Positions 2,856-29,437 of a stretch of 62,414 nt of DNA are shown in pieces; the stretch's first letter is position 1; each line of letters begins with the position of its first letter. This DNA comes from an uncultured Eisenbergiella sp. GTDB lineage: Bacteria > Bacillota > Clostridia > Lachnospirales > Lachnospiraceae. The notes under the pieces are model-generated. The model had not been told where the DNA came from. It saw only the letters and a program-made list of their open reading frames with translations, and searched no databases. The stretch lies in contig CANQVD010000020.1 of NCBI GenBank assembly GCA_947627215.1, forward strand, positions 1 to 62,414, written 5' to 3'. The translations under genes were made by a program, and so were the position numbers.

Positions 2856-2930
2856 GTCCGAAACCCCACGGCCTTTTACCACCATATATATGGCCCCGGC
2901 CCGGGGATTATGCGCCGACACGACACACAT

Positions 2931-3105
2931 CAGCGGCAGCCCCGCCGGCGTTCCGTCCCGCCTGTGTTTATCCGTTCAGACCGTAGAAAAGCGCCGGTCC
3001 TTAGCGAGGTAGTTCACGAGCTTAGGACCGCTGCGCTTTTCTTCGAGCGAGAGCGTGTCTGACGGAAAACACAGGCGGGACGGAACGCCGGCGGGACTGC
3101 AGCTG
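2931..3105. repeat. Giant hairpin element, copy 1
   Basis: Near-perfect inverted repeat. The left arm (2931-2982) and right arm (3054-3105) pair over about 45 bp. The core (2983-3059) begins GAAAAGCGCCGGTCCTTAG and ends CTTCGAGCGAGAGCGTGTC, and also folds on itself. The core recurs at 19621-19705 and, inverted, at 29291-29378, but the arms are unrelated to those of the other copies. It lies between GH18 and cwlD, both leftward, and could terminate the GH18 transcript. Confidence 0.85.
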
Positions 3106-3120
3106 ATGCGCAGGGCTTCC

Positions 3121-4830
3121 TCAATCCGCCAGGAAGCCCGCGATCACACTCCAGATATTTTCCCTGCCGTCGTCGAAGGTCAGCTTCCAGGAAGCGATAC
3201 CGCCCAGATCGTATTTTTTCATCACGCCGATCTTGCCGCTGATGGACTGTTCATCCTCCAGCCATACCTGCACAAAGCCCCCTTCGGCATCGAACCGGGC
3301 ATAGTTCTGTCCCGTCTGCTCGTCCCACTGATAGGCGACGCCCTGCTGGAGCAGATAATCCGACGCGGCCTGAATGCCCACCGCGCGGCTGCTCACGGTT
3401 CCGTCCGCAAAGGTGGTCCAGATCCGCGTGTAAAGCGGGATCGCGTTGATGACCTTTCGGGAGGGCACCATACCCGTCATCGTCTGGATCCCCTCCTCCA
3501 CATAACCGATGGAGGCTACGGAGCCCGGCTCCTGGCTGCCTCCCCAGTGTTCGTCATAGCCCATGATGATGACGTAATCCGCCATCACACCCTGTTCCTT
3601 CCACCTGTAATGCGCGTTGAAATTGCGGGGCACATAATTGTCCACCGAAAGCACCAGACCGCGGGCGCGGCAGGCCACGGAAAGCTCCCGGATGAACTGG
3701 ATAAAATCCTCTCCCGCCTCTTCCTTTATTTTTTCAAAATCGACATTGATGCCGTCGAGACCGCAGCGTTCCGCCTCTGCCATCAGCGTTTCGATGATGG
3801 CCGCGCGCTTCTCCGTCCAGGGAAGGATCTGATTCGGGTTCACCCCATCCGCTTCATGGGTGAAATCGTCCACCAGAGCCCAGACCTCCAGACCTTTTCC
3901 GTGAGCCTCCTGCACATACTCCGGACTGGCGATGCTCTCCACGCCGCCCTCGTTATCCGACAGGAAAAACCAGGTGGGCGAGATCACGTTGAGCCCCGTC
4001 ACGCCCTCCACCACGCCGGGAAAGGTGCTGTTGGCCTTCTCCTCCGTCACCTGATGCCAGGCCATGTTGATCTTGTGCGGCCGGGTATTGCCGCTGTAAT
4101 CCGGCTCCACAAAGCCCGTGTTTTTCACAGGCGTTTCCGTCTGCACCTCCTCCAGGCGCTTTTTCTCCAGATAGCCGATATAACCGTCCTGCGACTGTAC
4201 GCAGTCCCAGTCCTCAAACTCCTTCAGGACGGTCAGGGGCGCTCCCGCCTCCACCTGCGTCAGGATCTCGCTCTTCACGCCGCCCCGCAGACGGATCGCC
4301 GTTTTCTTCTTCACCCGGGCGGTCTGAATCTCCTCCCATTCCGTTTCCAGGAGGACCCGGTTGGGGGCTGTATACAGGGTGAAATTGAAATCCGAATATT
4401 TTTTCACAAAATCCAGCGCCAGCCAGAACTTCCCATCCTGCTCAAAGGCGGCGATATAACCCTCCGGCGACGTTTCCCCCAGGCCGGCCCGCACCACCTG
4501 ATCCGGCAGCGTATACAGAACCGCGCCTCCGTTGCGGTCCGCGTAAAAACGGTCGTTGAGACAGTCGTGCACAGTATCCATATCCAGGTAACAGTGCCCG
4601 TCCCGCAAAAGCCCCTTTTGCTCCAGAAACGCGTGGTTCAGCAAAATCGCCGTATCTTCCTCCCCGCTCAGTCCGAAATACGCCTGCAGGTCGGCTTCTT
4701 CCCTGGAATAGGAATATCTATCGTAAAGCCAGACGCCGGCCGCGCTCCCCGTGATGATCAGGATCAGGAGAATCGCGATCAGCGCCGGTATCCATTTCCT
4801 TCTTTTCTTTTTCTTCTTTTTCCCGCCCAT
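3121..4830 (-). CDS. Membrane-anchored GH18 glycosidase with SH3-like domain
   Basis: Probably acts on N-acetylglucosamine-containing wall or cortex polymer outside the cell. The 569-residue protein begins with a very basic stretch (KKKKKKRRK), then a transmembrane segment (about residues 14-35), a 200-residue region with a bacterial SH3-like stretch (VLKEFEDWDCVQSQDGYIGYL), then the GH18 barrel. The catalytic signature DGINVDFE places the acid at about E366, followed by typical GH18 strands (YVIIMGYDEHW). The architecture resembles spore or cell-wall GH18 proteins of Clostridia. The pairing with cwlD suggests a peptidoglycan role. The substrate is inferred. Confidence 0.88.
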   Translation of the reverse strand: MGGKKKKKKRRKWIPALIAILLILIITGSAAGVWLYDRYSYSREEADLQAYFGLSGEEDTAILLNHAFLEQKGLLRDGHCYLDMDTVHDCLNDRFYADRNGGAVLYTLPDQVVRAGLGETSPEGYIAAFEQDGKFWLALDFVKKYSDFNFTLYTAPNRVLLETEWEEIQTARVKKKTAIRLRGGVKSEILTQVEAGAPLTVLKEFEDWDCVQSQDGYIGYLEKKRLEEVQTETPVKNTGFVEPDYSGNTRPHKINMAWHQVTEEKANSTFPGVVEGVTGLNVISPTWFFLSDNEGGVESIASPEYVQEAHGKGLEVWALVDDFTHEADGVNPNQILPWTEKRAAIIETLMAEAERCGLDGINVDFEKIKEEAGEDFIQFIRELSVACRARGLVLSVDNYVPRNFNAHYRWKEQGVMADYVIIMGYDEHWGGSQEPGSVASIGYVEEGIQTMTGMVPSRKVINAIPLYTRIWTTFADGTVSSRAVGIQAASDYLLQQGVAYQWDEQTGQNYARFDAEGGFVQVWLEDEQSISGKIGVMKKYDLGGIASWKLTFDDGRENIWSVIAGFLAD

Positions 4831-6643: not shown

Positions 6644-6677
6644 CCCCGGCCGGAAAGAGTTTCCGGCCGGGGTTTTT
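6644..6677 (+). terminator. Terminator after mecA
   Basis: Perfect 12-bp stem CCCCGGCCGGAA / TTCCGGCCGGGG with a 5-nt loop, followed by TTTTT, 18 bp past the mecA stop. Confidence 0.9.
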
Positions 6678-6707
6678 AGGTTTTGGCTGCGGACGGCAGC
6701 GCATCTC

Positions 6708-6781
6708 GTGAACGCGCCTGCTGGCGCAGGCTCGGCCGCTGGTGCGGCCGGTTCACTCGATGATGGGGCATACGCCCCATC
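6708..6781. other. Three-way-junction-like fold plus hairpin between two terminators
   Basis: GTGAAC (6708-6713) pairs with GTTCAC (6751-6756). Enclosed are two perfect hairpins, GCCTGC-TGGC-GCAGGC (6716-6731) and CGGCCG-CTGGTG-CGGCCG (6733-6750). A third, GATGGGGC-ATAC-GCCCCATC, follows at 6762-6781. There is no coding frame and no promoter I can name. It lies between the convergent terminators of mecA and the pfl operon. Confidence 0.55.
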
Positions 6782-6792
6782 AAAATCAGAAT

Positions 6793-6834
6793 AAAAAGGC
6801 CCGGCCGGAAGCAAGCTTCCGCCGGGCCTTTTTA
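6793..6834 (-). terminator. Terminator of the pfl operon, probably bidirectional
   Basis: Stem GGCCCGGCCGGAAGC (6798-6812) with GCTTCCGCCGGGCC (6815-6828), flanked by AAAAA on the left and TTTTT on the right, so it can stop transcription from either side. It lies 28 bp beyond the glycyl-radical subunit gene. Confidence 0.85.
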
Positions 6835-6862
6835 TTCCGCTTTTGCGCTGCCTATTGGTAGG

Positions 6863-18775: not shown

Positions 18776-19540
18776 ATGAAAGGCAGAATTCATTCTCTGG
18801 AAAGCTTCGGCACGGTGGACGGCCCCGGCGTCCGCTTCGTGGTATTCGTACAGGGCTGTCCAATGCGCTGCGCCTATTGCCACAACCCGGACACCTGGCC
18901 CATGACCGGCGGCACCATGATGGAGGCGTCCGAAATCTTTGAACAGTATAAAAGGAACGAGAGCTTCTATAAAGGCGGCGGCATCACCGTCACCGGCGGC
19001 GAACCGCTGATGCAGGTGGATTTTCTGATTGACCTGTTCACCCTGGCGAAAAAGAACAACGTGCACACCTGCATCGATTCCTCCGGCATCGCCTACCATC
19101 CGGACGGCAATCCGGAATGGCTGAAAAAGCTGGATCACCTGATGACCCTGACCGATCTGGTCATGCTGGACATCAAGCACATCGATCCCGAAAAGCATAA
19201 GGAGCTGACAGGGCAGCCCAACGCCGGCATTCTGGCGTTCTGCCGGTATCTGGACGAACACCATGTGGACATGTGGATCCGGCACGTGGTCGTGCCCACC
19301 CTTACGGACGATCCCGTCTATCTTTACCGGCTGGGCTATTTCATCGGTCAGTTCTCCAACCTGAAGGCGCTGGACATCCTGCCCTATCACACCATGGGCA
19401 AGGTGAAATACGAAAAGCTCGGCATGGATTACAAGCTGAAAAACCTGCCCGCCATGAACGCGGACCGGGCCATCGAGCTGAAAAAGCACGTCCTGGAGGG
19501 CCTGCGCGACCGCCGCAAGGGAGAGGCCGCGCAATATTAA
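18776..19540 (+). CDS. pflA: Pyruvate formate-lyase-activating enzyme (radical SAM)
   Basis: Uses S-adenosylmethionine and a [4Fe-4S] cluster to install the glycyl radical on PFL, here presumably on the separate GrcA-like subunit. The 254-residue length is normal. The cluster motif CxxxCxxC is GCPMRCAYC (C28, C32, C35). TVTGGEPLMQ is the SAM-binding GGE stretch, and the N-terminal SLESFGTVDGPG is typical of PflA. AGGAG lies 6-7 nt before the ATG. It is 9 kb from pflB and divergent from the GH35 operon. It ends just before a giant hairpin element. Confidence 0.96.
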   Translation: MKGRIHSLESFGTVDGPGVRFVVFVQGCPMRCAYCHNPDTWPMTGGTMMEASEIFEQYKRNESFYKGGGITVTGGEPLMQVDFLIDLFTLAKKNNVHTCIDSSGIAYHPDGNPEWLKKLDHLMTLTDLVMLDIKHIDPEKHKELTGQPNAGILAFCRYLDEHHVDMWIRHVVVPTLTDDPVYLYRLGYFIGQFSNLKALDILPYHTMGKVKYEKLGMDYKLKNLPAMNADRAIELKKHVLEGLRDRRKGEAAQY

Positions 19541-19550
19541 GCGGCCTGCC

Positions 19551-19764
19551 CCTGCCGCGACCGCCCTGCCGCCCCGACGAAAAGCGCCGCCCGCGTGCAT
19601 TCCATTTTCCCGGACCGTTAGAAAAACGCCGGTGCTTAACGAAGCGAGCCTTTTGGCGAAGCTGAGTTTAGCACCGCTGCGTTTTTCTCGAGCGCGAGCG
19701 TGTCCGGAAAAGGAATGCACGCAGGCGGCGCTTTTCGCCGGGGCGGCAGGGCGGTCGGGACGGG
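19551..19764. repeat. Giant hairpin element, copy 2
   Basis: Arms 19551-19615 and 19702-19764 pair over about 60 bp. The core 19621-19705 starts GAAAAACGCCGGTGCTTAAC and ends CTCGAGCGCGAGCGTGTC, matching the cores at 2983-3059 and 29291-29378. The arm sequence is private to this copy. It lies between pflA and the ferredoxin gene, both rightward, and could end the pflA transcript. It fills most of the 322-bp gap; the remainder is the ferredoxin promoter region. Confidence 0.87.
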
Positions 19765-19862
19765 GTTCGCTCAATATTGCGCATTTTGGTCTTGTGCATT
19801 GTCCGGTTTTATATTAAAATAAGAGCTAACCTACATTTTCAAATTCTAAGGAGGATTTTGTC

Positions 19863-27008: not shown

Positions 27009-27194
27009 TTGCGCGACAGTTCGCGCGTTACGGGAAACTTCTACATTCGCTGTGCGAATTGAAAAGCAGCTTCTTTCGGGAAACTTCTCAATTCTCTTCG
27101 CGAATTGAGAAGTGGCGCAATCTCGCGATGTTCGGGAAACTTCTCAATTCGCTCCGCGAATCGAGAAGTAGCGCGACATTGCGAAGCAATGTCG
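27009..27194 (-). repeat. Tandem hairpin units between ssb and rpsR
   Basis: Three units begin CGGGAAACTTCT on the plus strand at 27031, 27077 and 27133, each followed by a hairpin of the form CAATTCGC-loop-GCGAATTG. Additional hairpins lie at both edges: GCGCGACAGTTCGCGCG (27011-27027) and CGACATTGC-gaa-GCAATGTCG (27173-27193). Spacing is 46 and 56 bp. They lie inside a ribosomal-protein operon and may act in mRNA processing. Confidence 0.75.
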
Positions 27195-29238: not shown

Positions 29239-29437
29239 CGCCGGATATCCGGTCCGGTCGGGGAGGTCGGGACAGGAACAGCGCATGACAGACACGCTCC
29301 CGCTTCATGAAAAACGCAGCGGATTCTAAGCTCAGTTTCGCCTTGACAGGCTCATTTCGCGAAGAACCGGCGTTTTTCAAGAGTTTGTCATATCGCTGTC
29401 CCTGCCCCGGCCTTCCCGACCGAACCGGATATTCCAG
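29239..29437. repeat. Giant hairpin element, copy 3 (inverted)
   Basis: Arms about 29239-29290 and 29383-29437 pair over about 45 bp with small bulges. The core at 29291-29378, read on the minus strand, starts GAAAAACGCCGGTTCTT and ends near GAAGCGGGAGCGTGTC, matching copies 1 and 2. It lies between the GHL gene stop (29441) and rsmI, both leftward, and is the likely terminator of the GHL gene. Confidence 0.85.

Follow-up and report, generated by a model that had tools for sequence, protein, structure and literature searches.

A dispersed, probably mobile palindromic element of Lachnospiraceae with a shared core and arms private to each locus

Three long hairpins behind genes

The window, the whole 62,414-nt stretch of Eisenbergiella DNA analysed here, carries three elements in which a conserved core is enclosed by long complementary arms (Table 1). 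They are its three longest inverted repeats among those with arms of at least 20 nt lying no more than 400 nt apart. An earlier note, made from the letters of this DNA alone, had described a shared core at these three loci, each just past a stop codon, and both observations held. The core profile matches at all three, with the third core on the minus strand, and open reading frames (ORFs) end beside them at 3121 (−), 19540 (+) and 29441 (−). The second of these is the pyruvate formate-lyase-activating gene at 18776–19540, and the left arm of copy 2 starts 9 nt past its stop codon. In copy 1, the match to covariance model R1 spans 2964–3078. Folding of single copies, which covered window copies 1 and 2, gave z = −15.4 for copy 1 as RNA and z = −13.5 for copy 2 as DNA, both relative to dinucleotide shuffles. 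No Rfam family was found in the window at gathering scores, and one match near copy 2, at E 0.7, is at chance level. Further, shorter inverted repeats lie at 6645–6845 and 27037–27176, outside the core-model matches.

Table 1. Parts of the three elements, in window coordinates
Feature	Position	Strand	Basis and remarks
Copy 1, left arm	2928..2969	+	Inverted repeat I2, 42 nt, 95% complementary
Copy 1, conserved core	2984..3059	+	Profile match, alignment A1; own hairpin and one-sided GAGCGnGAGCGTGTC
Copy 1, right arm	3067..3108	+	Inverted repeat I2; 12 nt from stop of ORF ending 3121 (−)
Copy 2, left arm	19550..19607	+	Inverted repeat I1, 58 nt, 90% complementary
Copy 2, conserved core	19619..19705	+	Profile match
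Copy 2, right arm	19708..19765	+	Inverted repeat I1
Copy 3, arm 3′ of core on minus strand	29245..29283	−	Inverted repeat I3, 39 nt, 87% complementary
Copy 3, conserved core	29291..29379	−	Profile match and covariance model
Copy 3, arm 5′ of core	29394..29432	−	Inverted repeat I3; 8 nt from stop of ORF ending 29441 (−)

A dispersed family with a conserved core

The core is not confined to the three window loci: in the 4.03-Mb genome (G000, 108 contigs), the covariance model gave 70 matches, 68 strong and 2 marginal. BLAST with copy 1 gave 42 matches in the genome, two of which are copy 1 itself. The element measures roughly 180–300 bp and reads inward from a private arm through an inner arm with a common ATTCCATTTTCCCGGACCG to a core hairpin, GAAAAACGCCGGTnCTTAG ... 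CTTAGnACCGCTGCGTTTTTC, with GAGCGnGAGCGTGTC present on one side of the core hairpin only. A bulge motif, sought with at most one mismatch, occurs at 58 sites, of which 56 lie at strong copies and 2 at marginal model matches (C14:49463 and C28:198). An autonomous version, in which a gene would separate the core halves, was considered and rejected: beyond the strong copies only those two sites turned up, and the ORF between C14:49463 and a full copy encodes a predicted lipoprotein-like product and no transposase. At L028:263–315, some 1.2 kb away from a full copy, the 3′ half of the element occurs alone, and the stretch separating the two holds a predicted lipoprotein-like ORF. Another type of giant hairpin, built on a different core (TGTCAGAAAATACGGG...CCCGTATTTTCTGACAGCTTTGGGC), lies at L099:1455–1668; a hairpin resembling it (L203) takes the place, in the congener G003, of one G000 copy of the present element (L008, at 1695; judged by eye).

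The arms of each copy match one another far better than they match the arms of other copies. Over the first 42 full copies, with 2 partial matches left out, the arm score has a median of 47 and a minimum of 22 for the two arms of one copy, versus a median of 8.5 and a maximum of 29 for arms of different copies and a median of 7 for shuffled arms. Arms are about 95% complementary inside a copy and near background similarity between copies, on either side of a core of about 90 nt. In the copies extracted from G000 (67 of the 68 strong ones, one C38 region being left out) and from the congeners G003 (60 of 67) and G002 (25 of 27), the paired arms have median lengths of 69, 65 and 68 nt and median identities of 95, 95 and 93%, respectively. 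Mismatches within arms become more frequent outward, from about 1% next to the core to about 12% at a distance of 80 nt. In the core stem, base pairs differ on both sides and one-sided intermediates are almost absent.

Two parts of the original description, a core of about 80 nt within private arms and arms that pair only with their partner in the same copy, stand in modified form. The core recurs, but conservation also covers the innermost ~20 nt of each arm (ATTCCATTTTCCCGGACCG) and decays outward from there (52 of the 67 G000 copies anchored for the column profile). Own-arm scores are indeed far higher, but some copies have a common degenerate motif, which part of the G000 copies carry roughly in register, and likeness between the arms of different G000 copies is enriched in register and increases toward the core. 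The motif CCCCGnCnGAAAGCGCCGCC occurs 29 times in G000, with 20 of these occurrences forming 10 facing pairs, and 1–3 times in each of four zero-copy congeners searched.

Twelve congeners searched with the covariance model carry 67, 27, 23, 3, 3 and 1 copies and, in six cases, 0; 4 of 12 genomes from other genera of the family matched, as did 0 of 16 from other families of the order. A search across Lachnospiraceae, which the earlier note had suggested, used a core model broadened by drawing on several genera and matched 88 of 200 family genomes, one genome per genus, with copy counts that are lower bounds because at most 21 candidates were scored per genome. A core pattern scan of named genomes matched 13 contigs: two metagenome assemblies of uncultured Eisenbergiella account for 12, and the last belongs to a Lachnospiraceae bacterium. 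Titles and abstract openings in one open-access library yielded no published description of this repeat family, which is now described from those 88 sampled genera. Near-identical cores are present within G065, G134 and G138, so the family moved or was duplicated recently in these genomes. G138 holds tandem arrays of the element (L263:842–1425 and L264:934–1399, with spacings of 164 bp and 187 bp). Copy 1 found no match among phages; two plasmid records, NC_012780.1 and NZ_CP085937.1 (the ~627-kb plasmid of Eubacterium/Lachnospira eligens), show a 45-nt core match.

The helper candidates examined were Y1 transposases. PF01797 was found in G000, G011, G019 and G020 and was not found in G002 (68% complete), G003, G014 or G023, all of which carry the element; this distribution does not follow the element, and we rejected a Y1 transposase as its helper.

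Changes in arms and cores at orthologous loci

Matching of flanks paired G000 copies with orthologues in G003 or G002 in 50 cases, 44 of them matched on both flanks and 6 on one; these pairs cover 42 of the 67 G000 copies. For the count of mirrored changes, five G003–G002 pairs brought the comparisons to 55, of which 45 were countable, the ten dropped having fewer than 25 columns left or at most 60% unchanged. Among the 2376 arm pairs in these 45 comparisons, 1963 were unchanged pairs and 29 unchanged mismatches, 179 were altered on both arms yet paired, 194 were altered on one arm, and 11 fell elsewhere. At a per-arm divergence of 0.116, independence would lead us to expect about 11 mirrored doubles rather than 179. 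The mirrored changes are also clustered, with 47 adjacent to one another versus a shuffled mean of 26.5 and maximum of 40 (2000 shuffles). Gap columns behave similarly: 43 are mirrored in both arms of one species, 36 occur in other combinations and 8 are common to species. For example, L147 and L016 differ by a 7-nt indel in both arms, and L114/L184 show a block of changes identical in both arms. Later arm evolution appears templated, one arm being rewritten from its partner, and copying of one arm from the other would fit these changes better than separate selected mutations.

The core is inverted in 18 of the 50 orthologous pairs and in 15 of the 44 matched on both flanks, as read from G002 and G003, draft metagenome assemblies in which misassembly can produce inversions or swaps around repeats. 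In 15 of the 18 flipped pairs the arms align well enough to be counted; the other 3, whose arms are too different to count, may be separate insertions. Core identity is 0.96–0.99 in 5 flipped pairs. Among the window copies, the first has its core reversed in G003 (identity 0.96) and the second in G002, where the core at that locus is also of another subtype (identity 0.78); the third keeps its orientation in both genomes. In 34 of the 50 pairs the G000 core resembles a paralogue more closely than its own orthologue, compared with 9 of 50 for the arms, so that arms tend to stay with the locus and cores with the genome; in 9 of the 50 pairs the arms are kept and the core is different. In 7 of the 18 flipped pairs a perfect arm run longer than 55 nt is present in one copy or both, and these flips may be assembly errors; simple graph ambiguity at that word length would not explain the other 11. 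Exact 56-mers across the core region are shared by some copies (11 of 67 in G000, 20 of 60 in G003 and 6 of 25 in G002), so some core swaps could be assembly errors.

Building on dispersal, position, mirrored arm changes and draft-genome core inversion or replacement, all established by sequence comparison, we consider it likely that the window holds old copies of a dispersed, probably non-autonomous mobile palindrome, widespread in Lachnospiraceae and sitting just behind genes, in which template switching maintains the arms and conversion or selection keeps the cores alike. The mobility would presumably be due to an enzyme. After insertion, arm sequences would be free to drift, and replication through the hairpin would switch template between the arms, copying a change in one arm into the other. 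Switching of this kind, which we infer to be the cause of the mirrored arms, would leave them complementary even as each locus acquires arms of its own. Such switching, or recombination between the arms, would also turn the core around in place, and ectopic conversion, selection, or both would keep cores alike across loci. The initial suggestion of a mobile hairpin or a fold-back replication product is supported.

Template switching has been reported to homogenise arms and invert spacers in yeast (PMC8604942) and at rRNA hairpins (PMC8794818). Scale speaks against it here, as a core of about 90 nt would be inverted and the reported spacer inversions are far shorter: 2–5 bp in yeast, where switching favours short spacers (PMC8604942), and 4–8 nt for rRNA loops (PMC8794818).

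Origin of the private arms and comparison with known systems

The 9 copies in G065 have arms that are 93% alike from one copy to another and 68% alike between the two arms of one copy, versus 53–54% between copies and 89–92% within a copy in the three Eisenbergiella genomes, the 60-nt stretches compared being placed slightly differently. Near-identical copies with common arms stand at different loci in G065, and arms are common in G138 as well; G134 copies have the core and outer ends in common, and their types differ in the middle of both arms (by eye). The earlier note had supposed that one flank was copied in inverted form at insertion and had named arms common to many copies as the observation that would count against this. 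Such arms are what G065 and G138 have and, in core and outer ends, G134 in part, and copying of a flank at insertion is not the best reading of them.

Of the 25 G000 copies that lack an orthologue, 12 were examined for empty sites in close relatives; 10 loci could be compared, where 16 comparisons with an element-free close relative mostly leave insertion and deletion indistinguishable. At window copies 2 and 3, element-free relatives have 4–125 bp between the flanks and no arms by eye (12 comparisons). The L023 site is empty and armless in two relatives, and its flank alignments overlap by 6 nt against both, a weak target duplication at one locus. At L037, G003 has just 55 nt of a single arm, of which the second arm looks like an inverted copy; the site rejoins in G003 at a 6-bp repeat, GGCGGC, bears the family arm motif, and looks more like a deletion remnant than a native single arm. 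At L038, about 24 nt of one arm are present in G003 and, more diverged, in G002. The L037 and L038 half-arms contain CCCCGnCnGAAAGCGCCGCC with changes. The core-B hairpin, half-arm and arm-without-core cases at empty sites were judged by eye. Comparison of strains with and without the element had been proposed at the outset as a way of seeing whether one arm matches the empty site; of the half-arm sites, L037 is the clearest and L038 is less clear. The G065 arm pattern, the common motif in G000 and the armless element-free sites point to arms that move together with the element and become different later.

Unrelated arms around related cores in other genomes could also point to local arm formation as the origin. 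All 5 copies in G219 (one contig) have mostly unrelated arms (score 19 for own arms, 8.25 for others), as do 12 copies read of 36 in G206 (two contigs; arms unrelated, 19.75 and 7.5); in G148, 13 of 18 copies were read and the arms are poor or shared (11 and 9). It is conceivable, if unlikely, that the core provokes fold-back synthesis, with copies writing, extending and repairing their own arms from the sequence at hand locally, and that they can also take up a new core, the arms acting as a locus-specific socket for an exchangeable, invertible core cassette. Both readings of arm origin need core homogenisation or conservation to explain the contrast between arms and core.

Also unlikely, in our judgement, is that copies are born with private arms, fold-back synthesis from the core at insertion writing an inverted copy of one flank. 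The half-arms at L037 and L038 and the copies of G219 and G206 would suit such local templating. Against it stand the common arms of the young G065 copies, the poor or shared arms of G148, the rejoining of L037 as a deletion would leave it, the armless L023 site, the 29 occurrences of the arm motif in G000 as against 1–3 in the zero-copy congeners searched, and the in-register likeness of arms toward the core. We set it aside after the common motif, the in-register likeness and the shared G065 and G138 arms.

We rank lower again, and regard as improbable, selection alone, acting through compensatory mutations on a functional hairpin of RNA or cruciform DNA, such as a two-way terminator or a 3′-end stabiliser. 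Of 152 copies from G000, G003 and G002, 138 have a predicted gene on either side (85 tandem, 34 convergent and 19 divergent intervals) and 14 lack one on one side; the predictions come from a simple codon score that is error-prone, scoring window copy 2 as convergent and placing 8 cores inside a predicted ORF. The outer arm lies a median of 9 nt from the nearest gene 3′ end (IQR 2–24, n = 153) and 93 nt from gene 5′ ends (n = 123). This position, the run of at least four consecutive A–T pairs beside the G+C part of the core stem in 40 of 42 copies and the conservation of the core across genera are as expected under selection, and a terminator or 3′-end role for the element is possible. The T tract, however, is missing from several copies of other genera, and in tandem intervals the core lies on the transcribed strand 38 times and on the opposite strand 47 times, a mixed orientation such as was first remarked in the window. 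A terminator scan listed neither of the two cores that it covered, a weak test given its loop limit of 8 nt. Mismatches in the arms, read on the core strand, comprise 154 of G–U type versus 172 of A–C type (p = 0.35; 9979 arm positions), similar numbers that indicate no RNA-strand bias, and the lack of a preference for G–U intermediates is as expected of a DNA-level process. The mirrored indels and clustered mirrored changes would also be hard to reach via single compensatory steps, although selection for a DNA hairpin could cause mirrored changes. Mirrored base changes, usually taken as proof of selected RNA structure, can arise without G–U preference.

It is very improbable that cores inserted into the loops of pre-existing palindromes, with arms belonging to the target: at the L119 locus G003 (L201) does have both arms around an unrelated loop of ~44 nt in place of the core (by eye), but among 150 long inverted repeats in a 470-kb sample of sequence, biased to element loci, 149 hold the family core and one holds another core, and the element-free relatives at copies 2 and 3 lack arms.

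Read as an old, dispersed, probably mobile palindrome whose arms are maintained by template switching, the family can be set beside several known systems. It resembles template-switch (quasipalindrome) loci in its homogenised arms, clustered mirrored changes and inversion between arms (PMC8604942, PMC8794818), and its arm changes are both mirrored and clustered, as in a quasipalindrome. Unlike the loci in the available portions of those sources, which have short arms and spacers, it is a dispersed bacterial family with median arms of 65–69 nt and a ~90-nt core at many loci. Similar to REPINs, or REP doublets with RAYT transposases, it consists of dispersed intergenic hairpins with compensatory stem changes and a possible single-stranded DNA form (PMC3116915, PMC6006769). 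However, REPINs as presented in PMC3116915 have conserved ends and a variable spacer, whereas the present family has a conserved centre and variable outer arms, and the RAYT (Y1) transposase is missing from several genomes carrying the present element. With MITEs, as defined in PMC3116915, the family shares size, inverted repeats, dispersal and patchy copy number, being short and present in several to many copies (68 strong ones, and near-identical copies in G065); it differs in that its ends, although common to copies in G065 and G138 and in part in G134, are not common to Eisenbergiella copies, in that no partner emerged among the Y1 transposases examined, and in that a target duplication appears weakly at one locus. 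The coding palindromes of Nematomorpha mitochondria likewise place many long, near-perfect inverted repeats in one genome, but lie inside genes, with arms that code for protein and a shared core that goes unmentioned in the abstract (PMC6649704). A single genome can offer dozens of such hairpins as natural replicates, in which copying between arms and the inversion or replacement of cores can be followed by comparison with close relatives. Template switching itself is already known; what this family adds is a dispersed palindrome with outer arms that change together.
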